This document shows, one piece after another, positions 6,209-55,861 of a DNA stretch of 64,000 nucleotides. A model generated the notes under the pieces. The model was not told the DNA's origin and did no database searches. It saw nothing but the letters and a program-made list of their open reading frames with translations. Position 1 is the stretch's first letter. Each line of letters begins with the position of its first letter. The DNA is from Delphinapterus leucas (taxonomy: Eukaryota > Chordata > Mammalia > Artiodactyla > Monodontidae). Where the stretch lies: the NCBI RefSeq assembly GCF_002288925.2, contig NW_022098050.1:4603882-4667881 (forward strand), read 5' to 3'. Position numbers and translations under genes: made by a program.

Positions 6209-6404
6209 GATGAGCCCTGCTAAGCAGGAGGCAGGGCATCTAGGGTGTGGCTCTCCAGTGTCAGACACACACCTTCAGCCCAATGGCGGGGGTCCCAGCC
6301 CTGGGGGCCCAGGGCTTGGGTGATCAGCTTGGAGAATCCCCACCACCATCATCACCATCATGAAGCCGAGGTGGGACCGCTCTGGTTTCTGTTATTGTGA
6401 ATCT

Positions 6405-6965
6405 CAGATGCAAATGTTTACAATTGGCCCTGAAGGGAAGTCAAATTTGCCACCCCCAAATATGCCTCTTAGGCATAAGGATGATTTTAGGCTGATTACT
6501 TTTAAGAAACAGCAGTCACTGGAGAAGCTCTGAAAATAGAGTAAGTTTTGTAAGAGACATTTCCGTGTATAAGGGAAATTTCCATTTGCCAGGGTGTCTC
6601 CCTCTCTGTACCAGGAAGAGGAAGATGACTCGAAATCTCTTGAAACTCTTATGAATGAAGCAGGCATGGACTTAAATCTGCATAAAAACCTTACCTTTGT
6701 TTCCCATGCATTTCCGGACAACCTCCCATAAATGGCCCCACCCCCCACCCCCAGCATCTTCCTTTGTCTTTAGCTGGAGGTGGGATTTAAGGTGGCGCTT
6801 TGAGCCATTTCGGGGAGCTACTCATTTTTCCTGGGGCTCTCCCATGGATACAGACAGTATACACGTTATTAAACTTCCGTTTGTTTTTCTCCTGTTCATC
6901 TGTCTTCTATTACAGGGGGTCTTAGCCAAGAACCTAGAAAGGTAGCAGGAGAATTCTATTTCCTC
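6405..6965 (+). mobile_element. Solo LTR, unassigned ERV family (LTR B, copy 1)
   Basis: It has the same architecture as LTR A: a GCCACCCCCAAATATGCC start region, a GATTTTAGGCTGA block, a TATTAAAC polyadenylation-like motif (6868-6875), then TTTTTCTCCTGTTCATCTGT and a TTTCCTCCCC end. The 117-aa and 82-aa frames here are chance products. No retroviral genes are seen. Confidence 0.5.
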
Positions 6966-7707
6966 CCCCCGGAGCCCCTTTCCAGCCAGAAGGCCTCCAA
7001 GTGCAGCCATCCTGCCTGTGCTGCTGGCACAGAGCAGCAGTGCCCACCAGCCCTCTCGGGAGGACCAGAGCCAGGGAGTCACAGGAGACCCCGTTATCCC
7101 TGAACTCCGATTCTACGTAGCCAAGAGAGGTCCTTCCAGCACCTTCACCCCAGCGCAACGATGATGTGCTCCAGGCTACCGGCAGCCTCAGCCCCAACAC
7201 AGGAGAGGCCACAGATTAAAGCCCTCCATCAAGGGCATCCTGGGCAATCCGGCCTCAAAGGCACCCAGTTGCTCTTAAGATCTTGAGAAACCCTGACCCT
7301 TTCTGAAGCGCCCACTTGTGTTATTTCTGGGCCACCCCCCCAATCTTCTTCTCGATCATGAATACCCCTCTTTTTGGCCACAGGGTAGTTACCCACCCCC
7401 ACCCCCCCCATGGTGATCAGCTTTGAAACCCTGACACCGGAAGGTTCTGCGGGTGTTCCTTCTAGGAGAGAGAAGAAAGAAGAGGAGAGATTGTGACTCA
7501 TCCTGCAGCCCAGCCTGGGTCGGGGAAGGAGGGTGCCCCACCATGGCGAGAGGGCAGCGGGCTAAGCCCCAGGTACCCGAGAGAAGGAGGCAGCCCATGG
7601 ATGGCCCAGCGCGGACAGCAAGGGGCCCTGCATCAAGAGGAGATGCAGTGGGTTCAGCACTGGGGTGAAGCCTGCCTGGCCTCGGCATGTGCAAGACCCA
7701 GCTACAT
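6966..7707. other. Non-coding, GC-rich; no gene recognised
   Basis: Pyrimidine-rich unique-looking DNA with C-runs. Frames of 71-129 aa overlap on both strands and are dominated by low-complexity residues. The counterpart is 31742-32483. Confidence 0.45.
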
Positions 7708-7937
7708 CCACACACACCATACACACACCACACAGAGACACACACCGCAGACACACCGTGCATAAACATACACCCCACACGCTACACAACCCACACTCGC
7801 TCCTGCACAGACACGAACACACAAAGACGCATACACACGCTCCCGCACGTGCATACACATGCACTGACACACACATATATAAACACACACACTTACAATC
7901 GCCTATGCATAGACATACACACCCAAATGTGCATGTG

Positions 7938-7974
<37 letters not shown>
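7708..7974. repeat. CA-rich degenerate satellite with pure (CA)n end, copy 1
   Basis: About 230 bp of imperfect ACAC repeats lead into an uninterrupted 35-bp CA tract (7940-7974). His/Thr-rich plus-strand frames and Cys/Val-rich minus-strand frames (up to 169 aa) are artefacts of the repeat. The pure tract has exactly the same length in copy 2. Confidence 0.95.
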
Positions 7975-7976
<2 letters not shown>

Positions 7977-9019
7977 CTGTCTACAACTATTGTGAAATCC
8001 CAGCTCACAAAGCAATCTCCGGGACACTTCTGTGATCAAACTCCTTCCCTCCTCACTGACCCCAGGCCATCTTTCCCCTCCCTGCTGCTGCCCTTGCCCC
8101 CCTGCCCCTCCCGAGGAGCTGGACCACTTTACCCACTCCTCCCCCACACCCCCCAACTTGTTTTCTTTTCCTGAGAGATTTTAAGTTTCCATCTGTCATC
8201 TGAGGTCATTAATCCCAAGACAGAAGGCCAAAGAAGCCTACCCCACACAGCCAAGCCATTAACTAATTGCAAAAGGTGCGCACATCCCATCATATTAATC
8301 CCCCTGCAGCAGCCCATCGCCCGCGCCTCGCTTCCGGAGTTGTGCTGATCAAAAGGACAAGCCGCCTGCTACCATCCTGGATGGCGTTGCCATGATGGAT
8401 GGTCCGTGTCCAGAAAGGGTGTGGGTCAGCCTCGGGGACTCATGTGTCAGGCTGAGGAGGGGGGGAGAGGTAGCTGGGCAGGAACAGGTGGCCGGGTGCC
8501 AGGGTGATTTTTTTTCCTCCAGCTGAGAAGGGAGCCGAGACTTCCTGTGTCCCCAGGCCTTGCCAGACCTAGACCACTGCCCCGGGATGGCCAGGCCTCT
8601 GAGGACAAGCACAGGTGAGAAGACCTGAAAGGTCCCCAGCGCCCTCCGTCCAGCAACTCTTCTCTCGCTAAGTCAGCGAGTTCAAGGAGACCGGCTTTCA
8701 ATGGACCGCCCACGGTCTGCGGACACAAACCTTCTTTCTGACGGTGCTCCTGGACGGCAGGTGGTCTCCCCAAGCTTCCCCTCGCCTCCACTGAGGGCTG
8801 GCAGGCCACGCCAGCAACGTGCAGGAACTGTCTGATGACCTATTTCCCAGCGGGAATTATTGGCGAGTCTGCGAGCGTGCGTGCGTGCGTGCACATCCGG
8901 CTTCTCTACTTCCAGGATGGGAATAAATTACCTGATTGACAAACCTCCACTGTAGTTCATGCACACTGTGCCCGTGGGTCGGCCGTGGCTACAGTTGCAG
9001 GCAGCTGACCTAATCCATT
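7975..9019. other. Non-coding unique DNA with a short GCGT repeat
   Basis: No gene was recognised. A CpG cluster lies near 8318-8338, and a short (GCGT)n run is at 8875-8891. The segment 8170-8310, with TAAT and ATTAAC motifs and no repeats, could be a conserved non-coding element, but this cannot be judged from one sequence. The counterpart is 32751-33795. Confidence 0.4.
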
Positions 9020-9078
9020 TATCTTATTTATACTGTGTTCCATTTTCCATATGCGGAGTTGGGGCCTCCTGGATCTGG

Positions 9079-9110
9079 TATGCAAATGAGACACAGTGAT
9101 TTGCAAATGA
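9079..9110 (+). promoter_or_regulatory. Paired octamer motifs, copy 1
   Basis: A perfect POU/Oct octamer ATGCAAAT (9080-9087) is followed 12 bp later by the near-palindromic ATTTGCAAAT (9099-9108). Both continue into GAG or GAGC. The region 9020-9130 is free of recognisable repeats, so an enhancer role is possible but unproven. Confidence 0.3.
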
Positions 9111-9130
9111 GCAGAGGCCTGACACTTTTA

Positions 9131-11184
9131 AAAATTATCATTAAGAACCTTGCCACCCTGCCACTGGGTAGGAGGAGAGAGGCTGGAACCGAGAGCGGGT
9201 GATAGGCAGCTTCCTTCCCTTCTTCCTCCCAGACTTCCTGAAGCCTCACTGGCCCCTGGCCCCTTACACAGCCACTCTATTGTTGGGGGGTGATGGGCAC
9301 AGGCATCCCTGAGGACAAAAAGGCTGGCAGGACATTCACAGAGAGCTAAACAAGGCCAGACGGGGATTCCAACTGGCACTTCCCATCCGGGTCCTGGAGT
9401 CCCACAGCCCACTGCTTCAACGAACAAAAGATAGAGTTTCGCTGACCCAGTTTTTTCTTTTATGGGGGGCTCCACGGATGGTGATTTCTCCTGGGCTTTC
9501 TTTAGAGCAAGCCGGTACGTGTAAGCCACGTAATAAGATAATCATGGATCAAATAGCCCTCGAGCAAGCTCTGAGTTTACTACATTATAACGCACGACCA
9601 TGCAACTTTACAGAACCTTCCTTCTCCTTCTTCCTCCCCTCCAAACCCTCTTCAGGCAGATGTGTTTGTTCAAAATAGGCAAGCGTGGCCCAGCTTAGTC
9701 TTTATCGAGAGCCCCCTACCTCAGAAGCCAGCACGTGGATGAGGCCAAGTGGGAACATCAAGTCTGAATCTTCCTCGGAGCTCCAAGGAGTACGTTCACT
9801 GTGACGCACCCGACGTGGTCCCACAATGCATCCTGGAGAGTGAGTGAGTCACCTCTAGTGGGCTGGATGGAGGCCAGCCGGGGAACCCAGTTTTGAGAAA
9901 TAGGAAGGCACGACCATCCTAAGCTCCTCCGTGCAGTAACTCTGCCCCTTCTGGTCTCCCCCCGCCCCTCCCGCTCCATCTTCTGGCAGCCTGCTGTGTT
10001 ATTCTCTAGTGTGGTATTCTAGAAAGGAACCTCATTTTAGTTCAAAGTTCTGTGGATTCATTTGAAGCCAGCGCCTTACTTTTTTTAAAAAACACTGGAG
10101 AAAAGAACATGTAATCCCGGCTTTTCCAAAGGCGGAGCGAGAGACCTCAATGACAAAGTTGTATTTCACTTGGCAATCAGGGAAAGCTGCCCTTTTTTTC
10201 CAAGTGTCCTTGTTTATTGTTCTGTTTCTAAGAATACGAAGAAGAGACGTCTCCAGGGCAGTAGGAACTCTTCCATCAGGAATTTCAAAAATGGCATTCA
10301 AAACATTTGGCCAACGGTTAGGCATATGTGAGCCCGTTTCCAAGACGCAAATCGTGGTACCTGACATCAGGAGCTGTACGGCAAGTTGTCTCTGACAAAT
10401 AAGACAACATTCGCAGGGGTTTTAGTAAAATTAAGTACAAGATCCTGAAGAGATAATGCCAGATTTAACCCCGAAGTGCCCGGTTTGCAGTAAGAACGTA
10501 CTCAACCCCCTTTGCTATCTCTCGACGCAAACCTACGTGTCCTTTGGATTTGTCTTAACATGATTCATTAAGGACAAGCCACATTGGGGACCAGGCGATG
10601 TTTGTAATTACTGTGTTCCCGTTCCCGTCTGCATGGCCTTGTTATCGTTCCAGTAGATATTTACAAACATGACTTCTGTGGGGGTTCCCTGTGATCTCCA
10701 CAAGGACTACAGCTGCTAATGAGAGCCAGGCAGGCCCCCAGCCAAGGGGCGCTGCTGATTATCAAGCCAAGAAACTAATGAGCTGGCAGAGAGACCAAAA
10801 CAGACTCAGAATGTGTAGCACAGCACTGGCGAGAGAGGTCACGGAGACAGCCTTAGGAGTGGGACAGAGCAGAGGGAGAAACTTTCATTCTAGCCGAATC
10901 TTTGCAGTTGCTAACAGCCGGGACAGCTGTGTTGGCAAAAGCAGAGTGAGCTGTTTATTTGGAGGTTCTTGGAGACATGTCTGAGGCCCACCAGGGAAAG
11001 AACGTGTGGACCGGTAGATTTGTTCCCGGAAGCCTCTGCTTACTCGGAGAGCCGACGTTTGAAAATCAGCTCTCGCCATTATTCTCTCTGCCTGGGAGGA
11101 TGCTCCCAGCCCGCCCTCCACCCCTCTGCAAGTCCGCTCCACCATTCCAAGGCCAAGCGCGCGTTCCATCCCCTCTGCTGGACC
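9131..11184. other. Unique non-coding DNA, no gene recognised
   Basis: About 2 kb with no obvious transposons. Frames up to 133 aa (9128-9529, minus) and 111 aa (10032-10367, minus) lack any recognisable motif. The lack of recognisable repeats makes this a reasonable candidate for conserved non-coding sequence. The counterpart is 33907-35960. Confidence 0.4.
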
Positions 11185-11335
11185 GCCCCGATTAACAGTG
11201 CTTTTATTCACCAAACATTTATCAACTTCCTTCTATGAGCCTCGCATTGGGCTAGGTGCTGGGGAGATGATTCCGTCATGGTTGCCGTCCTGGAAGAAGC
11301 GCTGGGAAGGCCGACAGGGAAAGGATTACCACAAA
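11185..11335 (-). mobile_element. L2-type LINE relic, copy 1
   Basis: ACATTTATCAACTTCCTTCT, then TTGGGCTAGGTGCTGGGGAG, follow the pattern of an antisense L2 3' end. It is diverged. The copy-2 counterpart is at 35961-36111. Confidence 0.45.
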
Positions 11336-12310
11336 TATGTAGGAGCCCCAAGGGCTGTTCCACTCATGGAGAAAGTAATCGAGTTCTGCCTTGTGACCTG
11401 CTCTCGCCGTGGTATCATCCGGATCTGAGATTTCACTCTGGAATGGCTTCAGACACATGCCTTGGGGCAGAGATGGCCCAGATGCTCAATAAAACTGTTT
11501 CCTCTTCCTGGGCACGCAGTTAAACTAATTTCGAAGCCCCTTTTAATCTTGATGAGAGACTAGCTTTCACCAATCAAATGTGGGCAAAAGGGATGAGGTA
11601 CTGGAGAATAAGGGTGCCTTCTCTCCCCCTTGCTCCCGTCTGCTTGCTGGATGATGCCAGAGTGACCTTGAAGGCACATTTTGAAGGTGGCAGTGCTACA
11701 GCATGTTAGAAGCTAGGTCAGGCTCCCCAAAGGCGGAGCTTGTAATGGGGATTCCTATGCAAGGGATTGAATGATAGAACGCTCCCAGGTGAAACCTACA
11801 AAGACAGAAGCAGGATAAGTCAAGGGAAGAATCTCAGCAAACGGGTAGTTTGAGATGAAGTTGAGCCTCTGATCCCCCAGGGAGCTCTGGAAGCTGAATG
11901 GCTCCATGGAGTTGTGTCCACTTGAGGCCACGGAGCCAGGCATCTGTACTGTGGGTCAGTCAGTCATTGGCTATGGGCTACCTCCCGGGGCTGCCTGTCC
12001 TCTCCGGCATTTCTGGGTGGAGTGGCTGCCTGTGGACTCAGGGCAAATGGCTGGATAATGGTGTGACTGGGAGCAATCAGTATCCAACTTTTACAACAGC
12101 TGCTGGAAGGGGGTACCAGCCTGATGAAGGGGAACTGAGAAGAGACCTAGTAGCCTCTACTACGATGGGTTCCCTCAATGCCCCCACCTGCATTCGACTG
12201 TGACATGAACAGGAAGTAACCCTTTATGGCTGGAAGTGTTAAGCCACTGAGATCTTGGGTTTGTTTGTTACAGTAGCCGGCGTCAGACTAGTTGCACACC
12301 TAGCCTCCTA
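11336..12310. other. Non-coding, no gene recognised
   Basis: Unique-looking DNA. A 101-aa plus-strand frame (11898-12203) has no recognisable domain. The counterpart is 36112-37086. Confidence 0.4.
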
Positions 12311-12440
12311 AACCAGAAGTTGGTAAACTTTCTCTGTAGAGGACGAGATTGTAAATATTTTCAGCTTCTTGGGCCACATTGACCTCCGTTGCTACCGTTG
12401 GCCAGATTTGTCTTGTGGGCCACAGTTTGCCAACCCCTCC
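12311..12440 (+). mobile_element. hAT-Charlie relic (MER58-like), copy 1
   Basis: The left end reads AAGTTGGTAAACTTTCTCTG and GATTGTAAATATTTTCAGCT. The right end reads TTGTGGGCCACAGTTTGCCA followed by ACCCCTCCCC. These ends are imperfect inverted repeats typical of MER58-type non-autonomous hAT elements. The centre is deleted relative to the remembered consensus. Confidence 0.6.
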
Positions 12441-13683
12441 CCTAAGCTACAACCTTCAAGAGTAGACAGTATGTCTTGGGGTTCTTTCTTTTGCACCTAA
12501 GGCCTAGGACAGAACTTTACGTGTATTATACAACCCATTAAATAAAGCCCAGGTGATCGATTTGAAAATGAAAAAAAAAAAGTGCGGTTTGGGTTACGGT
12601 TGTTCTTTGATTTGATTTCATCTTGAGTGACCACAGAAGGGCTGACTTTCTGGGTCTGTTGGAGATGGTTCTGGATTCTGTGCGGGCTCCTTATGAGTTT
12701 CTATTGCAGATGGCTGGCTGCAGCTCCCCGTGCCTTGGAACCTCCTGTCTCAAATCTCTCTCACCAGTGAGAACAGAAGTTGGTGGAGGAGGTCAGCCAA
12801 GTCTGGCATGCCAGCTGGGGCAGTGTGCTCACCGTGGAGGACCCAAGGTGTGCAGAAAGACCAGCATCATCATGTCCTAGAATCTTAGGGTTGATCCATG
12901 TAGCACTTAAGTCCTATTGGCTACAATCTCATCTTGGTGCTCCCACATCCAATTTTAATGGTAAATAGGCAAATATGGCAACCATAGTCTGAGAAGAGCA
13001 CGGTACCCAGAGGCCCAGACCCATATGCAGTGAGAGTCTAACTCACCCCACCGGGAAAGCTGCCTAGAATTAGCAGAGGTGCTACCCAGGCGTGAGGGGA
13101 TCCTTGAACGGATGATAGAGGCGGGGGGTGGTGAACATCAGTTATGGCCACAAGGTCAATGAACTCTTCTTTTGTAAGTTTCCCGGGAAATAAGACCATT
13201 CAGAATCCTGGAGAAGGTCTTCCCAAATGGGACAAGCTTACCTAAGAGGCAAGTAAATCAGAACAGCACAGGGGTAGACTTAGGGGACACTGAGAACACG
13301 AGACAGTCGGTGTCAGGGCCAACACACCTATCCCCCAGTAGCTGAGAATATCAGCTGTTGACCACTCACAGCTGGGTCCTTCACTGGGCATTGCCCTCAG
13401 TCACAAGAAACTGCCCCGCCCAAGTTTATGCTCCCCTCCCAGGAGACAGCCCTCAGCCATCCCTGGCTGATACAGGGGTACAAAGGCCTGGCCCCCTCAC
13501 CTCAGTTTGGAACAATTCTGAAGGGCCACCTCAGCTCCCATGCCCCTGTACCTGCGGAGGCCTCAGTTGCAACTGCTTTATGCGTCAGCTTCCCCATCCT
13601 GCATCCCTCACTCCCTTGCAGGTGCCTCTCTAGAGCCACTCCCAATAAACCTGCACGCAGCAACTGAGCTGATCCTAGTATGT
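12441..13683. other. Non-coding, no gene recognised
   Basis: It contains an 11-bp A-run (12571-12581) whose length is the same in copy 2, and unique-looking DNA with scattered short frames. The counterpart is 37217-38459. Confidence 0.4.
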
Positions 13684-15124
13684 ATATGAAGCTGTAAAGG
13701 AACCAGAAGAGCCAAAACAATTTTGAAAAAAAGAATAAAATTGGAGGACTTATACTTCCTGACTTAAAATATACTACAAAGCTATAGTAATCAAGATAGT
13801 GTGTTACTGGTGTAAGGATAGACATATAAACCAATGGAGCAGAATTGACAGTCCAGAAAGAAACCCTTACATTTATGGTCAATTAATTTTCAACACAGGT
13901 GCCAAGACTATTCAATGGGAAAGGATAATCCTTTCAATAAATGATGCTGGGACTACTGGATACACTTATGGAAAAAGATGAATTTAAACCCTTATCTCTC
14001 ATCATATACAAAAATTAACTCAAAATGGATGATAGATCTAAACGTTAGAGCTAAAACTATAAAACTTCTAGAAGAAAACATACGACAAAATCTTTGTGGA
14101 CTTGGATTAGTCTTCACCAAAAGCATAATCCATAAAATTTTAAAAATTATAAATCGGACTACATCAAATTTTATAACTTTTGTACTTCAAAAGACACCGT
14201 TAAGAAAATGAAAAGACATGCCACAGTCTGGGAAAAAATATTTGCAAATCATATAACTGATAAAGGTCTTGCATCCAAAACAAAATTTTTCTTTAAACTC
14301 TTAAAACTCAATAATGAGGAAAACAAGAACCCAATTTTTTTAAATGAGTAAAAACATTTGAATAGCTGTTTCATCAAAGACGATATATTGTACAAATGGC
14401 TAATACGCATATGAAAAGATGCTCAACATCATTGGTCATTAGGGAAATGCAAATCAAACCCACGATGAGATACCACTTCACACCACTAGGATGGCTAGAA
14501 TCAAAAAGACAGTAGCAAGTGTCAGTGAGGATGTGGAGCAACTGGGACTCTCACACTCTGGCGGTTCCTTAAAAAGTTAACCATAAATATACCACACGAT
14601 CCAGCAGTTCCACTCCTAGGTAAACACCCAAGAAAAAATGAAAGCTTATGTCTGTCCGCACAAAGACTTGTGCACAAGTGTTCATAGCAGCATTACTCAT
14701 AACAGCCAAAAAGTGGAAACAACACAGATGTCCATCAACAGATGAACAGATAAATAAAATGTGGTCTACCCATACAATGGAATGTTATTCGGCTATAAAA
14801 AGGAACAAAGCATGGATACATGCTAAAACGTGAATGAAGCTTGAAAACATGTTGCCTAATAAAAGAAGCCAGACATGAATACCACATACTGTGTAATTCT
14901 ATTCACGTGAAATATCCAGAAAAGGCAAATTTATAGAGACAGAAAGTAGATTAATGATTGCCTGGGGCTGGGGCTGGAAATGGACAATGTTTTAAAGTTG
15001 GATTGTGATGATGGTTGCACAACTGGGTAAATTTACTAGAAAACCTTTGAAAGGTATGCTTCAAACAGGTGAATTTTGCAGTATGTAAATCATGGTTCAA
15101 TAAAGCCATTTTGATTTTTTTAAA
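13684..15124 (+). mobile_element. 5'-truncated L1: ORF2 C-terminal part and 3' UTR, copy 1
   Basis: The translation shows diverged, frameshifted L1 ORF2p C-terminal text spread over several short frames: a [19 protein letters not shown] stretch, then VFIAALLITAKKWKQHRCPS and an MWSTHTMECYSAIKRNKAW-like end. A non-coding 3' UTR follows to about 15124. The frames are broken by many stops, so it is an old dead copy. The reverse transcriptase domain lies upstream of the truncation and is absent. Confidence 0.88.
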
Positions 15125-15484
15125 AACCTTCTGCCCACGTATCTCTAGCTCAAACTCCATTTCCAGGGAGCCCAACTGAAGACAACATACATTGCATTTT
15201 AATAGGAATGCCTGTTACTTTGTACTTCTGGTCAAATTTGAGAAAATTGCAGTTTCAAGACGAAAAGCCCCAAAGGATGCCCAAGCACACAGACACACGC
15301 ACATACACATACATCTTTCAAGCTTTAGGCATCGACACCACAGCTACCATCACCATCACCTTCACTGACACGAGGTCTAGGACCCAACACTGGAATCCCT
15401 TCCCATGAAGAAAATAACTTGATCGCTGCCCACATGAAACAGAGTCACAGTGGCCCATCCTCATCATTTTTAACTGTGAATTCC

Positions 15485-15680
15485 TTTTTTTTTTTTTTTT
15501 TTTTTTTGCGGTACGCGGGCCTCTCACTGTTGTGGTCTCTCCCGCCGCGGAGCACAGGCTCCAAACGCGCAGGCTCAGCGGCCATGGCTCACGGGCCCAG
15601 CCGCTCCCGGACCGGGGCACGAACCCGCGTCCCCTGCATCGGCAGGCGGACTCTCAACCACTGCGCCACCAGGGAAGCCC
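15485..15680 (-). mobile_element. CHR SINE with 19-bp internal deletion, copy 1
   Basis: A 23-T tail (15485-15507) precedes a minus-strand tRNA-derived SINE ending at CCACCAGGGAAGCCC. The B box reads GGGTTCGTGCCCC on the minus strand. Compared with the SINE at 55654-55861 it lacks 19 bp between CCGGTCCGGGA and GCGGCTGGG. Imperfect flanking repeats TGAATTCCT and TGAGTTCCT (15477, 15682) look like the target-site duplication. Similar deletions define cetacean CHR-2 subfamilies. Confidence 0.88.
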
Positions 15681-17404
15681 CTGAGTTCCTATTTTTAATA
15701 GCTGTTTCTGCTCTGTGCTATTTGTCATAATTCTTTGGCCTGAAAAGCTCTGCTACCCTGAGGTGTAAACAGTGGTGGTGTAAATTACCTGTGTTTGGTG
15801 GGGAGCGAGGGTCAATGGGTTGGCAGGAAGGAGCCCCTGAGACAGACTAGGGAACAGAGAAGGGCAGGGAAAAAAAAAAGACGAGTTGATAAATAAGGAC
15901 TCTGAGTCCATCCCCACAAGGCTGACCAGTCATTGCTCAATGTTGCGAGACACTGACTTCTTAGAGGTTTGCAGTAACAGCTCGCTCGACTTGGAAGTTG
16001 CCGTGAATGTGCGTCCCACCTGAGGCTGAGCCTGTGGAAAGAGTTCTCGTGCGGCCCTGCCTCGCTGACAGGTCTGGGACATCAGGTGCTCCTTGGAGGG
16101 TGGCTGAGTCTGAGCCCCAGAAAGCCTGCCCCCAAGCTCTTGACCACTGGACGGATCAGCAATGACCTTGTGCCACCACTCCATCTGTCCCCTGGCTCTT
16201 GCTTCTGCCGTAGGTCCCAGCCACAGTACCACGCCCTTCCTACTGCCTGGAATACCAGACGCCCACTCGGTCACTCCCCAAACATTTATAGAGCATCTAC
16301 CATGTGCCCATGGAGCTACCTCTGGGCTAAGTTCCAGTTCAAACAAGCCATGAGTAACAGCCTCCACCCACAAGAAGCTCGCAGGTGTCAGAATTAGGTG
16401 TTCTTTGTGCTGTGATGGGTGTGGAAGGGGGAAATATCGGAGACAGAGAGGTGGCTTTGGACAAGTCCACCTAGAAGGAGATGCCTGGGGAGACTTCCAA
16501 GAAGAGAGGACGCATAGATGGTCTCTTCAAAGAAGGGTGGCCGCTTGCAGACAAGGTGTTAGATTTCTTCAAAAGGAGAGAGCGTGTCAGTTGAACTAAA
16601 ACCCCAGAGCCACGCTGTCCATTAGAACTTTCTTCAATGACGAAAATGTTCTGTATCTGCTCCATCCAAAACGGTAGCCACTCACTAATGAGCACGTGAA
16701 ATGCGGCTAGTGCCGCTGAGGAAGGGAATTTTTAATTTTATTTCATTTTGGTTTACTATAACTTAAATTTAAATATGCACACGTGACTGGAGGCTAGCGA
16801 AGTGGACAGCACATCTCCCAGGATACAAAACAGCAGGGCCCGTTCCCAGAAGTGCCAGTGGTCATAGGAGACAGACGATTCGGGTGCCCGGAAGTGGCTA
16901 CTAGAAACACAGCCAGCTAAAAAGAGGCCAGGTCACCGAGGAGCTCGTGGGCGTGTCTGTCACGCACCTCAACAGTGACACATAGATACCGCCCTACCCA
17001 GTGAAGGAATGCATCCACCTCTGCCCCTCCACTCAAATGCTGACAGCTGCCAGAGGGAGATGGGCTGAGAAAGGGCACATATGCCCGTTGTGGGCGTTCT
17101 GGTCATGGTGCCCAGCTGGACGAGTGCAAGCCCCGTTAAAAGGGAGCAGCCACTACTCAGCATCACTTGTGCTCTTGTTGCCTCCAAACACAGGCCCCCA
17201 ACTGCCTGATCTTCAAATGATTCAAGAAGAGCCAAAAGTCATGAATTATTTTGTGAAATCATTCAGTATCCAAATGTTGGCTACATTTCTTTTTAACTCT
17301 CTGCGGTCCAAGGAAAGCCAATCTTGGGGCTGGGATTTGGTCCTTGAAACTACAAATTTGCCACCAAGACTCCTTTCTCTACCTCTTTTGTAGCACCTGT
17401 CATG
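15681..17404. other. Non-coding with one L2-type fragment
   Basis: The part near 16280-16390 (ACATTTATAGAGCATCTACC, then ATGTGCCCATGGAGC) looks like an antisense L2 tail. The rest is unrecognised. Overlapping frames on both strands (147 aa minus at 15930-16373; 130 aa plus at 17001-17393) have no domain. The counterpart is 40456-42179. Confidence 0.4.
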
Positions 17405-17575
17405 CTTCTAGCATGAACCTGTGTTTATAATGCCCATCTCTCCCCACTAGGCTCCCCATTCCTCAGGGACGTTCTTATTCATCCATCATTCCCAGAACCT
17501 AGTACAATGCCTGTACGTGGTCTCTGTTTCATAGATGTTTGCTGAACGAATGAAGGAAGGAAGGAAGGAACGACC
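17405..17575 (+). mobile_element. L2 3' end with GGAA tail
   Basis: CATTCCCAGAACCTAGTACA, then ATGCCTGTACGTGGTCTCTG, and the TGTTTGCTGAACGAATGAAG tail match the L2 3' end. A short (GGAA)n run follows. The counterpart is 42180-42350. Confidence 0.55.
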
Positions 17576-19350: not shown

Positions 19351-19579
19351 GGGTGACGAAATGGAACGCCAGGAACCGCTCCCATGAACCGGCGGACTTA
19401 CTGAAGCTTCTGCCCATTAGCAGCTCCCAGCGCTGGTCTGCATGCGGCATCTTCTAGACCTGTGTCCCCCTTCCCCGCATCCCAGGAGACAGCATGTTAA
19501 TTCCCCTCTGCTCTCCAGGTCTCTGCCGTGTCCATTACATAGGCCTTGAGTCTGGGCTCTGTATTTCTTTCTTTAGAGG

Positions 19580-20152: not shown

Positions 20153-20154
20153 TT

Positions 20155-27665: not shown

Positions 27666-27669
27666 ACAT

Positions 27670-27825: not shown

Positions 27826-27845
27826 CCCCCAAGGCAGTGTCCTTT

Positions 27846-43400: not shown

Positions 43401-43474
43401 CACACCATGGAGTCCTCTCCCAGTCACTGATGACACAGGCCATTTTTCACAAGAGGATATAATCTGCTAAGATC

Positions 43475-44125: not shown

Positions 44126-44354
44126 GGGTGACGAAATGGAACGCCAGGAACCGCTCCCATGAACCGGCGGACTTACTGAAGCTTCTGCCCATTAGCAGCT
44201 CCCAGCGCTGGTCTGCATGCGGCATCTTCTAGACCTGTGTCCCCCTTCCCCGCATCCCAGGAGACAGCATGTTAATTCCCCTCTGCTCTCCAGGTCTCTG
44301 CCGTGTCCATTACATAGGCCTTGAGTCTGGGCTCTGTATTTCTTTCTTTAGAGG

Positions 44355-44527
44355 AGTGCTTCTCCAAATTCAGCCTGGAGGACTTATTAAAACCGAGATG
44401 GCCAGGCCGCACTCCCAGAGCGGCTGATTTGGCACGTCTGCGGTGAGGGTCAGAGAACCTGCGTTTCTAACAAATTCCCAGGCCATGCTGATGCTTCTGG
44501 TCCTGGGGCCACACCTTGAGAACACTG
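44355..44527 (+). mobile_element. MER20, plus orientation, copy 2
   Basis: Counterpart of 19580-19752. Confidence 0.8.
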
Positions 44528-44930
44528 CTTTACAATTTTCGTCTTTCTTAAAAAAAATTTTTTTTTACCAGTTCAATCTGCGATTACTGTCTGTATTAGG
44601 TTGGAAATTGGGAGCTCATGACATCTGTTTGTTTGATTTTAGAAATATCTGTCCAGTATCCAGCTCTGGATTGAACGAGCAGAATAACTATTTAGGTGAA
44701 AGGTAAGGGCCTCAAAGTGAGAGAGGGGAAGGAAGGGAGGGAGGAGTGACGGATGGAAGGAAGGAAGATGGTTGGAAATGGCAGCTTCCAGAACATCTCT
44801 GGAAGGTGTGATTCTACATCTTTGCTCTGAAGAAACAGGGAGTGGGCACAGCTCCACGGCTGGACTAAAAGGAATATGGCTTTTCTCCGTGTTTTCCTAT
44901 CACATGGGGATGGCGGGGGGGGGGGGGGTT

Positions 44931-45351
44931 ACCCTACCAACCGCGGGTCCATTTTCACTCACGCGGGGCGCTGGGCAATAGGCAAGCCCGGATTCCAGAG
45001 CCTGCCTCCGGCGCACCTGTCACGCTGAGGGAAGGAGGCCCGCGCCCTTTGGCTGATCCCAGAGCCTGGAAAAATTCCAGACTCCGCTGCCTTTGAAAGC
45101 CTGTTCCTTGGAGCAATCCTGGCTCGCTAGGTTTAATTGTTTCGTCTCTTTTTTTTCTGGTTTATGAAGCCGCCTCGCCTGGAGCCCGCCCCTTGCGCAG
45201 CGGCCCGGAAAGGTGGGAGGAGCGCATTCAGCGTTCGCGGCTTGGGCCAGAGCGGGTTTCTATTTCCCGATTATAAAGAAGCATTTGTTGGGAGCTGATG
45301 AATTGCGGCGGGGCTGGGGCCGGGCCGGATGCGCACCTGTGATGCTCTGCC
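44931..45351. promoter_or_regulatory. CpG-rich patch, copy 2
   Basis: Counterpart of 20155-20575. If the duplication is real, this element is present twice on the chromosome. Confidence 0.4.
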
Positions 45352-46776
45352 TCTGCTGGATTCTGTTTATCCAGTGCAGCCCCTTTCCATCCCCCCTCCA
45401 CAAGTGTGAAAGCCTCTGAGACGTGGCTACTCAAAGTGTGGTCCACGGACCTGCAGCACCACCCGGGAGCTTGTTAGAAGTGCAGATCTCGGGCCCCACC
45501 CAGACCCACTGAATCAGAATCTGCATTTTAATGAGAGCCTGCAGTAATTCCCTATTCCTGTTAAGCAAGACACTGGGGGGTCCGTGGCACAGAAAAGGTT
45601 AAGAGCTCCTTCTCTCAGACAAGGAAAGGGAGGGGAGGGGGGAAAGTTCAGTCCCGGATTTGCAAAGGAGTAGGGGGTTAACCCTGAGGTTTGCCCGCTG
45701 GAGTGGAAGACAGAGAAATTAACATATGGAGTGAGTTACTGGGGAAGTGGCGGAAGCTGGAAGTGAACATGAGTTGGGGGACAGCCCAATTCGTCTGGGG
45801 GGAGGGGTGGAAAGAAAGGAGATGGGGTAAGTGGGTGCCGCCCACACTCCCAGGAAAGCTGGGTATGTTGCAGGCTGGGACCTTTTCCTCTGCCTGCTGC
45901 GCGTTTTCTGAGACCCAACTGAGGCGTTTCGGCACGTATAAGGCGTAATAGATGAGAAAACAGTAGCGGCCAGAGCTGATGGCAGGCGCGCAGCTGAGGT
46001 AAGAGCACCTGGGAACTTCTTAATAAGCAGGCTGACATGTGGTGAATAAAATTTTAATGCTGGAAGAAAGAGAAAACAGTGTCGTAAAAAGTATGCCCGG
46101 CATCGCTGCATCGTAACCAAGAGGACACGCCTGGCAGGGAGCTCCGGTGGAGCGGACAGTGGCGAGAGTCACCCCCCGCCTCGGACCTAGCGGTAACTCA
46201 TGTCTGGGCCCGAGAACCAGCCTGGCTCCATTTTCTGCACTAGTGGAGGGGAGAAGAGGCACTGAGCGCGTTCAACAGGACCTAATCCAAAAGGAAATGA
46301 TTTGGATTTGGTGTAAGGACAGGAACTGATACGCACAAGCCTTTCTGGGTTCCCATCTGACCATCTCTTGCCCTCGCATACTATCAGCCCTGCGGGAACC
46401 ATGTGTCGGTAGGGAAAACTGGCCGGGTCGGGGGTGGGGGGGTGGGGGTGGGGGAAGGCTTCAGTTAAATCGCATAAAATCCAAAGTAGCTGATACACTT
46501 TCAGACTCCCCTCCAGGCCTCTTTTGTCAGCCCTGTTCAACAATTTTATGCATGGAGCCAGTGGGCCTCAGGAAGACACACACCTATCAAATTCCTGATT
46601 GCCCCAAGCTGGTAGAGTAGCTAATCTACCAAGAAGATAATCTATTTGTGTAACCAAGCAGAACCCTATGGGGCCTTCCCGGGACAGGCCTTCCCCCATA
46701 TCCTCTGCTTTAGCTCCTCTCTGAAGTACCCAGATAATTGTATTTGATGCACATTTCCTGAGTTGTTCTGCAGACT

Positions 46777-47138
46777 TGAAAACCCCACCACCAAATGGAA
46801 CATGTTAACTACTTGATGACCATGAGCACAGAGCCCCAGGCCTCCTGGAGCCTAAGGACTGGTAATGTTAACCCCTGTGACGCCACTCTGCTGCCTCACC
46901 ATCAGCCAATCAGAGAACTGTGCACAAGCTGATCACATACCCTGAGACTCGCCCCGCCTCCCCTCACCTGGCCTTTAAAAATGCTTTGCCGAAACCCTTC
47001 AGGGGGCTCGAGGCTTTTTAGGGCATGAGCCACCTCTCTCTTTGCATGGCCCTGCAATACACCTTTCTCTGCTCCAAACTCCGACGTTTCAGTTTGTTTG
47101 GCCTCAGTGTGCATCGGGCACACGAACTTGCATTAACA
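46777..47138 (+). mobile_element. Solo LTR, ERV1-like, copy 2
   Basis: Counterpart of 22001-22362. Confidence 0.5.
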
Positions 47139-50100
47139 CTTGGACTCCAATCATGTCTCAACAGACTGTCACAATAAAGCGAGTCTATCAAAACGGTATT
47201 CACTTATTTATATGCCTCCTCACCCTCTTTCATAAAGGTTTTGAGATGATTTGCAGAAATCGTAGTAAATTAAATTAAAATATTAAAATTAAAATGTAAA
47301 ACTCAAGTTCGGTTCTGGTATAAACTAGCATTGGAGGTCAGGACTGGTGTGAATGGTGACATTTAATAGGAAAAAATATAAAGTTCTGTCCTCCATCTAG
47401 AAAGAGAAAGCCCAGGTATAGGATGTGAGCAATGTGGTTTAGCAACGTCTCAGATAAAAAAGAAACTGTAATGAATGGTAAGCTCAGTCTGAGTAAAGAG
47501 TGGCATACGGTGGCTGGAAAAATTAAAAAGAACGCTGCCCCTAGGGTATAGTTACAGATGGAAATGTTTCTAAAAAAGGAAGGGATGGTCCCACACTGCC
47601 CCACTCTTGTTAAGACCACTCCTAGAACATTCGGCTCAGTTCTGAAAGTCACACTTTGAAAAAGTCATTGGCAAACTGGATACATTCCAAAGAGAGTAAT
47701 CTGGAGCGTGAAAGATCATGAAACACAGAAGTGGGCTATGTGCCGGCCCCTGTGTGAGGTACCAAAGGGACAAAGTCATAGAAGACATGGTCTTGTCCTT
47801 CAGAAACTTACAGCCCATGAGAAAATCAGATAAGTAAACCACAAAAAGAAAGAAGGCTAAATCAGGCTGTGGAATCTTGGAAGAAATTATGAAATATTTG
47901 GACTGGATGACATCCGGCACTCAACACTCCCAGCAGCTGGGGAAAGGAGTGCCTCCGTGTTAAAGGGAGAATCCAAGTGGTGCATCTCCGATGTACCACA
48001 TGTATCAAAAAAACCTGACTACAGAGGCTTCAACAAATAAGGTGTATTTTGCTTGCACCACAAGAAAGGAGGAGGTAGGCAAATATGAGGCCAAGAATGT
48101 CAGCCCCTTAGACTCTGCGATTCTCTTGGCCCTTCCCTCATGGTTACAAAGTGGTTGCTACTGCTCTTGCCTTCAAGTCTGCATTCCAGCAGGAAGAATG
48201 GGAAGGGGCAACACTTGTATCAGGAAGACAAAAGCCTTCCCAGGAACCCACAGCAGACGCCTGCTTACAGCTCATCAGCCAGAACTGTGGCCCCTGGTCC
48301 CACAGTGGGGTTCATTATCAGGAATGGGGATTGGGTCAGGCAACTAGTGGATGGTGGTGCCATCCACAGAGACAAGAAATACAGAGGAGGAACAGGTTTG
48401 CTGGGTGCAGGGGTGGCGGTTAATGAGTTCAGTCTTGGACATGTTAAGCTGAAAAGCCTGTGAAGTATCCCGAAACAGAGATGTTAAGTGGAGAAATTCG
48501 ATGTGAGGGTTTGGATTGCAACTGAGAGTACTGTGCTTCAGACATGGATTTGGGAGTCAGCAGCAAAGTGGGGATCGCAGCCCTGGTTGTAGGCGAGCTC
48601 CCTCAGGGAGGAAGTGCCGAGTGAGAGGCCCAGCCAGGCTCCAGCTGGGTACCAGTTTCACATTTAGGCATGAAGTTGGGAGGAAGAGAGGAGTCTGAAA
48701 ATATGCTGGGAAGAAAAAGCCAGAGAGATGGGAAACCAGGAGAGAGTGGTTCACAGAGGCTGTGGGAAGAGAGACTTTGAAGTGGGGGAGACAGACAGGC
48801 ACCGCCCAGACTGTCGACGCCCCTCCCCTTATCCCTTTAGCCCTCCTCTGATCGCACCTGCAGCTGGGGGCCACGCCTTCCTGGGCATGCTGCCAGCTTC
48901 TGCCTTGAGTGCTCATGTCTCCCTGTGTCATGGGACTTTCTCTGGCCCCATGGGGGATTGTTGAGCCAAGTGCAGGCACAGCTTGGAAGGTAGGGAGTTA
49001 ACCCCCTAGTCTGGAGGGGGTTGGGGAAAACAGGAGCCATCGGGTAAATCCCCCAACCTTCCCAGTTCCAAGCTGGATCCCACAAGGTTCTTCGAGGACC
49101 CACAGAGGGGACTGAGCTCTGGTTGCCCACCGCAGTGACCCGCTTTACTGGCTCTGCTCTCTTCTCCGTCTCATTCTCCCTACGCATTGAAGTGTGGGCA
49201 TGGCTCGGGAGCCCCCGCGGAGGTGACAGGGAGCCACCCACCCACTGGTATCATCTTGTTTTGATCCTTTTTATGGTTTGGTTGTTACTTTAGAAGGAAA
49301 CCAAACTAAAAGCAACCTTGAACCAGGTCCCAGTCATCATTTTCTCCCATCCTTGAACGAGGACCAGACTCTGAACTGACCCAACACAGAGGTCAAAATG
49401 CATGGGAGAAGGACAGAAAAGTGAAGCTTGGCTTTGGCAAAGGGGGTCAACGTTGACCTTGGACCAAGCAATTTCAGAGATGTGGCAGTGGCTGGGGCCA
49501 GGTGTCAGTGAGATGAGAAGTAAATAAAAGAGAAGGAAGTAGAGTCAGCCAGTGTGGACCACACTTTCAAGACTCTTGACACCGAGGGGCAGGAGAGACC
49601 CAGGATCATAGCTAGCGTGTGATGTAGAGTCAAGGGAAGCTGTTGTTGTTGTTTTGAATTGTCTTGTTTTGCTTTGTTTGTTATTTGAGATGGAGGAATG
49701 GCCCCTCAGAGGGTCTAAGGTGAGAACAAGGCTACTGACAGCCACAGCAAAGACTCCCAAGCTCTGAGCACCACACAAGGCAGCAGAGAGACCCCAAACT
49801 AACGGGACCGTGGGAGCAGGGATAAGGACCAAGGTCTGGTCCAGCAGGAAGATGGAAACTGATGGCTGGGGTCATTCGCATCCCACCTCTACCTCCTGCC
49901 CTGTTACTGCGTAAGATCCTGAAACTGTGGCGTGACCCTGGGGAGGGAGAGGTCCCCTGGAAGGTCTGTGGTTCAGTTTTCCACCAGTCCAGTGAAATGG
50001 GGGCTCTGAGTCAGAGTTCCACTGGACTTGTAGGAAATAACAAATACATGGCATGTAACCCCAAATGAAGTAATGAATCATATTCATTGGCTGCTAATGA

Positions 50101-50716
50101 TATCAATGGCTGCTAAGATCACAAAAAGAGGGATGACCAGACGTCATGTGCCTGCTAAAGGAATTAACAAATATTGAGCCTCAATCCCTTCAGCCCCTGG
50201 ATCCATTTACCAAATCACAGTAAGTACACAGAACGGAGAAGCAAGTGAAACTCTACCACAGAGATGCGATCACCAAAGCCCACACTATGTGATACTCCAC
50301 AGGACAAAGGACGAGGTTCCCTCAACAAGTAAGAGAGAGAGAGAGGAGAAACCTACAGATTAAGAGACTTTAAAAGACAAATCAATAATCCCAGTGTGTA
50401 GAACCTATTTGAATCCCAATCCAAAGAAACTTAAAAAAAAACTTTGAGATGTATGAAGCAATTAAAATTTGAACACTGACGAGATTTGATAAAATTAATA
50501 GGTAATTGCTAAATAATATAGTTACATTAGGAAAAGAGTCTTTATCTTTTAGAGATATTTACATATACGTGATAGGATGTTTGGGATTTGCTTCAGAAGA
50601 GTCCAGTGGATAGAAAGGAAACCAAACTGGCATGAGTTCACCATTGTTGCAGCTGGATAATGGGTCCATGGAGGTTAGTGATCCTAGTCTGTCTAATTTG
50701 GTATGCGTTTGAAATT

Positions 50717-50917
50717 CTTTTTCTAAAATATTTTTTTAAATATTTATTTATTTAGGCTGCACCAGGTCCTGGTTTCAGCACGCAGGCTCTTAGTTGTAGC
50801 ATTCGAACTCTTAGTTGCGGCATGCATGTGGGATCCGGTTCCCTGACCAGGGATCGAACCTGGGCCCCCTGCATTGGGAGCGCGGAGTGTTACCCATTGG
50901 ACCACCAGGGAAGTCCC
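50717..50917 (-). mobile_element. CHR-type SINE (CHRL-like), copy 2
   Basis: Counterpart of 25941-26141. Confidence 0.85.
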
Positions 50918-51820
50918 TATGTTTGAAATTAAAAGGTGGGTAGGAGGGAGAGAAGGAAGGAAGGTGGGATGGAGAAAGGGGGTAGGAAAGGGGAGGGAAG
51001 AGAGCGGGGAGGGGAGGGGAATCACACAGTTTTCTCCCCAACCTAAAACAATCACAAAGTAAAAAGCCGGTGGCACGGTGTGCGCTCCTGCATTGGGGGA
51101 GGGATATTCAGAGCCACCACAGCGGTGGAAGGAAGGGTTTTTACTTGCTCACAGCTACATTTGGTTCCACCACTAACTCACTGCCCCAACAGCCCCTGAT
51201 GCTCTCCAGACCTTTTCAAATGCCCCCTTGTTAAGCCTTATCTCTCCATCCTGTTACTTGGGCTGGAAAGTGACTCCTCGCACCAGAATTGAAAATAAGG
51301 GAAATAAGTTTGCCCGTAGGAAGTAATGTAAACCATCAACACTGAATGTGTCAGAGTGAAGTCACCTTGAAGGAGTGGAATGCCCGGGCCAGCGAGACTT
51401 GGCAGGCAGCAGCCTGATTTAAGTGGTTAGGAAATTAATATGTGTCCATCACGTGGCAGGCTGGGGGCAGGCAGGGTCGGGTGGACACCTTGCTTTTTCC
51501 CTCCGGAATCATTCTCCTCCCTCCCCAACCTGCGCTGGCTCCGGCAGGCTGACCTATATGGCTTTCACTGTGCTTTGATGGAGTTTGGCTAATGGGAAGC
51601 CACAGAAGGTGGTCGGGGTGGGGAGGGGATTGCGGTCAACTTACTTCTTCTCCTGGCTCCCCCCTGCCACCAAGGATCCCCCAGATCCCCCAGAATCCCC
51701 CAGTTCTTCGTAAGGGTCCTTCTCCAACTAGGTTTTGCTAACCATTCCGTTGCTTTGGGCTTAGGGATGCTTCAAGCCATTCCTCTGTAAGTAGCACCTT
51801 TGACATTTGAATTATATGCA

Positions 51821-52441
51821 CTCTTGAAGCCGAATCCGGCCTCTGGAGCCCAACACCGAATTAAATCTCGGAGACAGAGTTTTGGGTGAAATAGAAAAGA
51901 ATAGCTTTATTGCTTTGCGGGACAAAGGGGGCCACAGTGGGCTAATGCCCTCAAAACTGTGTGTCCCAACCTGGAGGGGGTAGTGAGACATTTTTTTAGT
52001 AATGGTTCAAAGAGGGCGTGATCAGCTGGTGGACATTCTTCTGATTGGTTGGTGGTGAGGTAAGTGGGAGTCGGCATCATCAACCTTCTGGTTCCAACCC
52101 GTCTGGGGTCTTGTGCGCAGCAGACAGTTGACTTCTCCCACCTGGTGCGAGTTTCAGTGTCTGCAAAACAGCTCCAGGATATTGTTTGTGTGTCCCTTGA
52201 GGGGGAACCAGGACCCTGCCCCAAGGCTGCACTATGGGTTCTCTCGACTGTTCCCCCCTTGTCTCTGCATCCCCTCCTTTCCCTAATTAACATCTGTTTG
52301 AACCTGGAACCCCATTGGAACTCAGGGAATGTCCTGGTGGCTGAATGAAGCCTATTTCCTATAATCAATAAATGGGGGACATGGAAAGGCTTTTGTGCCC
52401 AGGAGCCCCACTGGCTACTACTCAGTATCACTCTCAACGTC
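51821..52441 (-). mobile_element. Solo LTR, copy 2
   Basis: Counterpart of 27045-27665. Confidence 0.5.
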
Positions 52442-52621
52442 ACATAAAATCATAGACTTGTAGGGCTGGGATGGTCTTAGACATGAGATGGCCTGGTCCC
52501 GGCTCCTCATTTGGGGCGTGAGAGATTTGGAGATCAGAGAGGCTGAATAACTTGCCCAGGGGTGTTCAGAGAGTGAATGGGTCAGGGCAAGGACCACCCC
52601 CCCCCCAAGGCAGTGTCCTTT

Positions 52622-53306
52622 TTATTTCTTAATTTCAGCTTTATTGAGTATATTGACAAACAAAATTTGAATTAACATACCCACCACCTCACACATCTAT
52701 CTCTTTCTTTTTTTCTTTTTTTTTGGTGAGAACATCTGAGTTCCATCCTCCCAGCAAACCTCAACCATATGACACAGTGTTATCAACAATGGTCACCATG
52801 CTTTACATCAGATCCTCAGACCTTATTCATCTTATAACTGAAAGTTTGTACCCTTTTACCAACCTTTCCCTATCTCCCCTGCCCCCAGCCCCTGGCAACT
52901 ACTTTTCTACTCTCTGTTTCTATGAGGTAGACTTTTTTTGTTGTTCAGATTCCATATATAAGTGCAGTATTTGTCTTTCTCTGTCTGGCTTATTTCACTT
53001 AGCACAATGCCCTCAAGGTCCATCCATGTTGTCACAAGTGGCAAGATTTCCTTGTTTTTTTAATGGCTGGATAATGTTCCGTTGTATGTATATACCACAT
53101 CTTCTTTATCCATTTATCGGTTGATGGACACTTAGGTTTCTTCCATATCTTGGTTATTGGGAATAATGCTCCAGTGAACGTTGGGGTGCAGATCAGTATC
53201 GCTTCGAAATCCCGTTTTCACTTCCTTTGGATAAATACCCAGAAGTGGGATTGCTGGATCATAGGGTAGTTCTCGTTTTAAGTTTTTAAGGAAACTCCAT
53301 AGTGTT
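52622..53306 (-). mobile_element. L1 3' part, antisense, copy 2
   Basis: Counterpart of 27846-28530. Confidence 0.85.
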
Positions 53307-55653
53307 TACTGCCTGCGCCAGTTTACTGCCCCGAGGGCAGTGCCTTTTGACCACACCCAGCACTACCCATCTACAAGGGCATATCTGGATTTGGGGGTCC
53401 TGGGCCTATCAGCCAGTGGGACCTCCCAGCCCTCCCAGTTCTAAGCCACCCTCAGCGCAGGTAAAGGATGGATTTGTCGGGGTTGTGGGAGAGCCCTAGA
53501 CTCACGAAGACAAGCAGCACACTGGGCCTGTGTGACCCTCTGGAAGCGTCTTAACCTCTCTGAATCTTTTCCTCATCTCCAAAATCGTACCTAATAATAC
53601 CTTCTTTGACAAGGTTGTCATGAGACCCAGAATGTGGTATCGCAGAGAACTCCTAACTCGGTGCCTGGCGTGAAGCGGGGACTCATAGCTAAATATTACT
53701 CATAACTAACTAAGGGTCTGAAATTGCTTACTGGGTCCCAGCCTAGGACTGCACCCTCCATCCCGACCTTACGCCTTCCTCCAGGTCAACATCTACACCT
53801 TCCCCAACACCTTTTCAAGTAAAGGCAAATGTCACAGATGCTGCCAGCACCTCGCCTGGATCCCCTCAGCTTACCCTGGGGGTCCCAAACTAGATGCTCT
53901 TTCCATCCCTCTGCCTGAGAGCCATCTCTGGCTGCGGCACGCGCTGAGCCCAGGTCTGGGCAGGCCGGAAGCGCCGGGGACTTAGTATCATCCCGGACAG
54001 CCCTCCAACAATGTGGGCCGGGGGTGGGGGTGCGGGGTTGAAGAAATGCCTGGCCCCCTCGCCTCTCACTAGGACAGTTACAAGCCACATTTCAGACAGT
54101 CTCTGAGAAGGTCCCCAACGGGACTGCGCCCCTGTGCGTAAAGTGGAAACCCGCTCAATGAAACGCCCGTCACCGGCTTTCCCTCCTTCCTTGTCTCATT
54201 TCTGAGCTTCTTGGACTCACCTCCCAAATCCTTATCTCGAGTCTGCTTTGAGGGGATACCAAGGTAAGACCCAAAATAATAGGTGCAAGGAAATCTCACT
54301 GAGCTTTGCTGGGTCCACCCCAGTGTTCCCCCCGCCAGAGCAGCCTGGGAAGTTGGAGAACTCACCCCCAGGTGCCGGGGTGCTTCCTGGAGAGAATCAG
54401 CCTCGTGAAAGAGAGAACTAAGCAGTAGGCTGGCCCCGTGCCAGCGCACAGAGAGCCGCATTTGAGGACAGAGCAATCTGTCACGAAAATCCCCCTCCTC
54501 CCCAACCCAGTGGGGTTCCGTCCGCACCCACGAGCAAAGGGATTTAGAGAAAGCGCGAGGAAAATCTCAACCACGGAGACAATGAAGCCCCTCGCTCCCG
54601 CAGCGTCGATGGCTGGAAAGAAGACAGAAGTGGGGCCCCGGGCCCGCGACCTGAACACCATCAGGCTCCTCCAAGTGGCAGGGCCAAGCCTGGCCCCGCC
54701 ATCCCAGCAGCCACTGCAGAGGGAGGAGGGGAAGTGCCTGTCTTCTGCCTCCAAACATGCCTCCACTTCACACCCATTAGGATGCCTGTTATAATGAAAA
54801 CCACTGACAAATAGAAGACAGCCAACTGGTACAAAGAATGCCCGCCTTGCAAGGTTGTTGTGAGGATTAAATGAGGTAATATCTGTACAGAGAGGTGTCT
54901 GATAATGGTCATTGTCACTTGTCAAAGCCAAACAGGGGTGCGAGCCACTTCCTCTGTCACGTGTGAAGGGCAGCTCATCAGACCCCCAAGCAGTGAGCAG
55001 ACGTCCTTCTCTTCACCTTCCTACCCAGAATTTTAAAAAGCCCTCGCGGATGCCCTGGCGTGGTTTAAGGCTCAGTTCACGCTTTAACCTTCCTGCCACC
55101 ACTCATGCTGTTCCCTGCAACTGTTTTTGTGCTCCTCGTTGGCTATCCGCCGGCTCTTCGGCATGATCGACAAAACTGAGGTCCCTGGGGCTCCCTGCAG
55201 AGCAGCAGCTCTTGGTCAAGTCCATCATTTCTTCCTCCTCGTACTCCTTTGTGGTGGTTGATTTGGAATTTCATTTTTGCATCCTTCCAACCTTCCAGAT
55301 AGCCTCTATAACATCTCAAGCCATGAGTTCCTACCTCTGTTTTCCCCAAAGTGCCCTCTGGGGCTCCCTTGCAACGAGAACAGAGATTCCTGGCCCTGCT
55401 CCCAACAGACCCAATCAGAATCTTGGAGGCAGAGCCTGGCAGGGTGGAGGTGGGGTTGTATCAGCCCTTGATGGTGTGTATGGCCCTCCAGCCTTGGAGG
55501 ACTGCGGCTCCAAGCCTTTTCAAGTCTGAACAGCCCATTCCCCATGCCTCTTATTCCGAGAGGACAGACTCACCTTCTCCCGAGGTCTCATCCCGCTCGC
55601 TCACCAAACGGTCCCTCCTTCTTGGTTTGAATTAACTCAAGAATAGCAATTCT

Positions 55654-55861
55654 GGGCTTCCCCGGTGGCACAGTGGTTGAGAGTCCGCCTGCCGATGCGG
55701 GGGACGCGGGTTCGTGCCCCGGTCCGGGAAGATCCCACATGCCGCGGAGCGGCTGGGCCCGTGAGCCATGGCCGCTGAGCCTGCGCGTCCGGAGCCTGTG
55801 CTCCGCAACGGGAGAGGCCACAACAGTGAGAGGCCCGTGTACCGCAAAAAAAAAAAAAAAA
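55654..55861 (+). mobile_element. Intact CHR SINE spanning the right edge of copy 2
   Basis: Complete tRNA-derived SINE with an A box (TGGCACAGTGGTTGAGAG), a B box (GGGTTCGTGCCCC), a tRNA-unrelated body and an A-run ending at 55861. Perfect 15-bp target-site duplications AAGAATAGCAATTCT flank it (55639-55653 and 55862-55876). The duplication boundary at 55760 lies inside it. Confidence 0.95.

Follow-up and report, generated by a model that had tools for sequence, protein, structure and literature searches.

Among 1,019 humans, tandem duplications account for 15,295 of 17,029 duplications, according to the available text of PMC12350158. Two copies are regarded as a segmental duplication when they extend over at least 1 kb with at least 90% identity, as defined in section 8 of PMC10919930. 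Regarding the sequences in which such events break, the available part of PMC4090240 describes an enrichment of tandem repeats at human CNV breakpoints, and of Alu SINEs at the breakpoints of interstitial deletions and duplications. Adjacent copies may also be introduced by the assembly process; as stated in the portion of PMC9516828 that deals with them, the copies of a false duplication usually have a gap between them and are sometimes joined by wrong gap filling, and the features used to recognize them are half depth (heterotype) or very low depth (homotype), discordant pairs and 1-copy k-mers.

The locus described here was found in a window of 64,000 nucleotides, which is the whole stretch of DNA that was analysed; it belongs to an assembly of 2,346,454,124 bases in 324 contigs, with one contig beyond 120 Mb. 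The window contains the letters A, C, G and T alone (N count 0), and 77.4% of it is formed by two copies of the same unit arranged head-to-tail with 0 bases in between (Table 1). When the window was compared with itself shifted by 24,776, matching began exactly at position 6209. The sequence-only reading had proposed two gapless copies of 24,776 bp that fill 77% of the window, and this was borne out to the base; likewise, its count of four differences at three sites was recovered by a base-by-base alignment with MAFFT (6209-30984 versus 30985-55760), in which four columns out of 24,777 differ. The copies are 99.98% identical over 24,776 bp, which places them within the definition of a segmental duplication, and chance as the origin of a 24.8-kb match is out of the question.

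Table 1. Coordinates of the duplicated unit, its edges, the differences between its copies and the two other tandem pairs (window positions unless a contig is named).
Feature	Position	Strand	Details
Window	C59:4603882-4667881		C59 has 14,556,120 bases
Copy 1 of the unit	6209..30984	+	24,776 bp
Copy 2 of the unit	30985..55760	+	24,776 bp
Novel junction	30984..30985	.	SINE interior joined to unit start, 1-bp microhomology (G)
17-bp minisatellite	6145..6209	+	3.8 perfect copies; its final base coincides with the unit's left edge
Cut SINE in copy 1	30878..30984	+	without its 3' half and without the right target-site copy
Complete SINE over native right edge of the unit	55654..55861	+	
Left target-site duplication	55639..55653	+	15 bp; copy 1 counterpart at 30863-30877
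Right target-site duplication	55862..55876	+	outside the unit
Site 1, T-run	T23 15485..15507 (copy 1); T14-G-T7 40261-40282 (copy 2)	+	from the alignment
Site 2, G-run	G13 20140..20152 (copy 1); G14 44915-44928 (copy 2)	+	one indel
Site 3	A 30284 (copy 1); G 55060 (copy 2)	+	CpG-type transition
10.3-kb pair on C59	-75811 to -65473; -65472 to -55132		10,339 bp; 10,341 bp
6.9-kb pair on C14	C14:1176617-1183541 (copy 1); C14:1183542-1190466 (copy 2)		6,925 bp, head-to-tail

The right outer edge of the unit falls inside a SINE which we take to be of the cetacean CHR family, and from this type of SINE the DNA source is probably a cetacean. Both outer edges, 6209 and 55760, look native. Since the SINE with both target-site copies is present only at the right outer edge, the sequence identifies 55760/55761 as the old connection and 30984/30985 as the new one; the element spans the former and is cut at the latter, therefore its insertion predates the duplication. 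The contrast between the native SINE, which has a target-site copy on either side, and its truncated counterpart lacking the right copy was counted in favour of a real duplication, as were the gapless copies and their near-identity, the N-free window and the length of the contigs.

The new junction was compared with 20,000 random junctions drawn from the same region. Its exact microhomology is 1 bp, and 43.5% of the random junctions do as well; this value, no better than chance, was counted against a real duplication. The motif TGAGCC occurs on both parental sides of the junction with an offset of one base, and if one gap is allowed GTGAGCC pairs with GATGAGCC across it; a banded local alignment gave a score of 9, reached by 1.0% of the random junctions, and was listed in favour of a real duplication. 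A comparison of the edges of the 24.8-kb unit found no long homology between them. Unequal crossing-over (NAHR) between interspersed repeats flanking the unit could be suspected from the SINE at the right edge, whose family has several members in the window; nevertheless, such an exchange depends on extended similarity at the two edges and should produce a hybrid repeat instead of a cut SINE, whereas the left edge has no SINE and the edges share 1 bp plus the displaced TGAGCC. Exchange between SINEs was rejected as there is no partner at the left edge, and NAHR in general is extremely improbable here. Because no long homology was found, repeat-mediated exchange is discarded, which leaves end joining or template switching as the possible routes. 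The partners at the junction are unrelated, so there is no repeat on which an assembler could have formed a loop, and this too was counted in favour of a real duplication.

The differences between the copies are concentrated in homopolymers. Runs of at least 10 residues comprise 67 of the 24,776 bases of the unit, yet they hold three of the four differences: site 1 includes one indel and one T/G change, and site 2 is also in a run. The sole difference outside homopolymers is the A/G at site 3, which lies in a CpG context. CpG transitions are a very common class of germline change, and the nature of this difference was counted in favour of a real duplication. Using the whale mutation rate of 1.58e-8 per site per generation given in the available text of PMC10919930, one substitution corresponds to approximately 1,300 generations (95% interval 32-7,100); gene conversion could be a reason for the copies looking younger than they are.

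This scarcity of substitutions also bears on the possibility that the pair is a false duplication, i.e., that overlapping or haplotype-derived contig ends were placed in series and the gap between them closed, a tentative explanation that carries limited though appreciable weight. If the copies were two haplotypes, 12 differences outside homopolymers would be predicted in 24.8 kb at a heterozygosity of 5e-4, and 27 at 1.1e-3, as compared with the one observed; the probability of one or none is 6e-5 and 4e-11, respectively. The dolphin heterozygosities of 0.0011 and 0.0007 reported in the accessible part of PMC12415809 do not fit the copies as two haplotypes. A heterozygosity of about 1e-4 does fit one difference or none (P 0.29), and this is the value that a plain allelic false duplication would need; the same part of PMC12415809 gives the vaquita as the cetacean with the lowest heterozygosity. 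The absence of a gap in the N-free window also argues against a false duplication, in which a gap is usual though not obligatory.

Regarding the content of the unit, a six-frame search against Pfam with stops read as X, covering positions 1-29,900 of the plus strand, 1-29,800 of the minus strand and 54,000-64,000 of both strands, found no family at E 0.01; the last 1.2 kb of the unit were reached through copy 2. The method is able to detect a domain, as it found RVT_1 in one of three frames of a flanking locus (L020), while one frame of another flanking locus (L027) gave nothing in the domain scan. Three tRNA calls in the window (ARAGORN, Rfam), which exceed the Rfam cut-off by 1 to 7 bits, resemble the heads of tRNA-derived SINEs. 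The 24.8-kb unit is thus apparently non-coding, although a short exon lacking any Pfam domain would escape the scan. A provirus or a LINE was considered as the nature of the unit and received no support, given that no domain was found and that the 24.8 kb are mixed sequence. Because the scans found no coding domain, a direct functional effect of the duplication is unlikely, and any effect would be exerted through regulatory DNA.

The copy number was followed with two pieces of the unit. The piece 6209-6700 has two full-length matches in the genome at 100%, both in the window, and the other 38 of the 40 scored matches (from 1,081 candidates) show 78-83% over part of the query, a pattern as an interspersed repeat gives. 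For the piece 18700-19300, the two matches obtained in the genome are both at 100% and both in the window. At the sensitivity of the search, neither piece occurs on another contig at high identity, and judged from these two pieces alone, the unit is not a high-copy mobile or simple repeat. That each piece appears twice at 100%, both times in the window, was counted in favour of a real duplication.

The 24.8-kb pair is accompanied by other tandem duplications in the same genome. In 304 kb of contiguous sequence examined around the window, a second head-to-tail pair of 10.3 kb was detected 61 kb to the left. Its copies differ in three columns, all of them in homopolymers, its junction has a 3-bp microhomology, a length reached by random junctions in 5.4% of cases, and the left edge of the pair lies inside a 31-bp minisatellite; two ORFs of this duplication gave no match above the curated cut-off, the one match obtained having 14 bits versus a cut-off of 27. 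A third pair, of 6.9 kb, came from a sample of five patterns with 354 points (10, 84, the first 100 of 623, 71 and 89), which was read by eye for same-strand pairs less than 60 kb apart. Two such pairs were seen, the one confirmed on C14 and a candidate on C15 at 46 kb, both with the pattern represented by the first 100 of 623 matches, which cover C1-C19 alone and for which about one chance pair is expected by our estimate. Of the 354 sampled points, two therefore fall within a tandem duplication that was confirmed, a number too small to estimate the rate well. The copies on C14 show four mismatches (SNVs) in 5,541 bp compared, with a further 459 bases identical and about 0.9 kb outside the comparison; the right edge is in a poly-A run, the left edge falls within a 68-bp minisatellite, which continues leftwards beyond it, and the junction microhomology, measured to the right of the break, is 0 bp.

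Earlier, the near-identity of the 24.8-kb copies had been called unusual for ordinary non-coding DNA; the near-identity stands, and the rarity is weakened by at least two more such duplications in the same assembly. The neighbour at 61 kb makes the case less singular and a systematic cause likelier. It was counted against a real duplication, as it would be unexpected for independent rare germline events without a shared cause; also counted against was the bias of the differences towards homopolymers (six of the seven differing columns in the two C59 pairs), as consensus errors would give it too. These same facts support a false duplication: the near-identical head-to-tail pairs number three, of which two lie 61 kb from each other, each pair starts at or within a minisatellite, and six of seven differences on C59 are in homopolymers. 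The lengths of minisatellites often differ between haplotypes, and perhaps heterozygous minisatellites broke the assembly graph and triggered the false joins. If the pair is an assembly error, it represents a gapless kind of false duplication that would be missed by gap-based screens and would inflate the duplication counts in the assembly.

A shared cause could also be biological, with the 24.8-kb and the 10.3-kb duplications arising from one replication-stress event or being somatic or culture-borne. We consider this unlikely; it overlaps with, and in part is a sub-case of, a real duplication. Both C59 pairs are simple, head-to-tail and 61 kb apart, have a minisatellite edge each, and show one and zero differences outside homopolymers and 1 and 3 bp of microhomology, respectively; moreover, the available text of PMC9609164 describes tandem duplications with microhomology in human multiple de novo CNV (MdnCNV) cases, where they are attributed to MMBIR. 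Nevertheless, the human events in that text measure about 1 Mb and are found on separate chromosomes, and the C14 duplication, with its four SNVs in 5,541 bp, is older or allelic, so that no single event accounts for the three pairs.

Each of the three near-identical duplications (24.8, 10.3 and 6.9 kb) starts within a minisatellite or at its edge. With minisatellites defined by a period of at least 14 and a score of at least 100, a definition chosen after the cases were seen, 917 of the 268,882 non-duplicated positions of the 304-kb region are in or within one base of one. For two or more of the four breakpoints on C59 to fall there, the probability is 7e-5; under a looser definition it is 6e-4. 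The C14 case came from a sample that was blind to minisatellites and, as a plain observation outside this calculation, adds the third of three. A broader idea, which we put forward as speculative and rather improbable, is that very young tandem duplications of about 7-25 kb, starting in or at minisatellites, are numerous in this genome, and that minisatellites would act as launch points for the breakdown of forks and for copying the adjacent DNA again. If true, the re-replication of neighbouring DNA launched from minisatellites would have produced a recent, partly clustered wave of tandem duplications.

Taken together, the 24.8-kb pair is probably real and very young, a tandem duplication that arose at a minisatellite prone to breakage with no long homology involved. 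In a possible sequence of events, the start would have been a replication fork or a break at the end of the 17-bp minisatellite, the 24.8 kb would have been copied again, and the product would have been closed into the middle of the SINE by end joining or template switching without long homology. Its origin would be germline, and it could still be segregating; alternatively, it may be somatic or have appeared in cell culture. The arrangement of the copies, their near-identity, the position of the new junction and the lack of long homology at the flanks are read directly from the sequence, whereas the replicative nature of the event, its age and the real existence of the duplicated molecule are what we infer from it. 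The initial pair of readings, a very recent segmental duplication or else copies duplicated falsely during assembly, is supported as a pair, and neither is proved. The flanks carry 3,450 N in the 304 kb around the window, and these runs may be assembly gaps or withheld stretches; if they are gaps, the contigs are scaffolds and the argument from a long contig for a real duplication becomes weaker. A real duplication would provide a very young structural variant resolved to the base, with the native and the new junctions both readable; it may be a polymorphism, and it could be used to test whether tandem duplications are seeded by minisatellites.

The locus can be compared with three described systems. 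It resembles the false duplications of the heterotype and homotype classes, as presented in the available text of PMC9516828, in its adjacent near-identical copies, in the homopolymer differences and in the presence of several cases per assembly; it differs from them in being gapless and in that its copies are too alike for haplotypes at usual heterozygosity. With the human MdnCNVs of PMC9609164, as far as that text describes them, it shares the head-to-tail arrangement, a short or imperfect junction homology and the occurrence of more than one event per genome, whereas the duplications found here, of 7-25 kb and partly clustered, contrast with events of about 1 Mb on different chromosomes. 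A further likeness is with the recent tandem segmental duplications and tandem-duplication CNVs of mammals, described for cetaceans in the available part of PMC10919930 and for humans in that of PMC12350158, which also exceed 1 kb and, by far, 90% identity, are head-to-tail, and involve neither a mobile element nor long homology at the junction. In contrast with these, the present unit has an identity of 99.98% with one change outside homopolymers, is apparently non-coding, has an edge exactly at the end of a minisatellite, and is known from assembled sequence. Among human structural variants, tandem duplications are frequent according to PMC12350158. The present case is ordinary in kind, and its possible link with the minisatellite is the interesting part.

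Another head-to-tail duplication, with near-identical copies of 10,339 and 10,341 bp, lies on the same contig (C59), 61 kb to the left of the 24.8-kb one; it shows a 3-bp microhomology, and its left edge is contained in a 31-bp minisatellite. A third head-to-tail duplication, with a unit of 6,925 bp, was found on contig C14 of the same assembly (G000, GCF_002288925.2); its copies showed 4 mismatches in the 5,541 bp compared, and its left edge is enclosed by a 68-bp minisatellite. On contig C15, one 9-base pattern matched twice on the same strand with a spacing of 46 kb; the two matches may belong to a tandem pair or be coincidental.

Within the window, three tRNA calls, 1 to 7 bits over the Rfam cut-off, look like tRNA-derived SINE heads rather than tRNA genes.

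Positions of the features (negative values lie left of the window start)
Feature	Sequence	Position
Second duplication	C59 (window coordinates)	-75811 to -55132
Third duplication	C14	1176617-1190466
Pattern pair	C15	15261413 and 15307468
tRNA call	window	26061-26135
tRNA call	window	50837-50911
tRNA call	window	59938-60011
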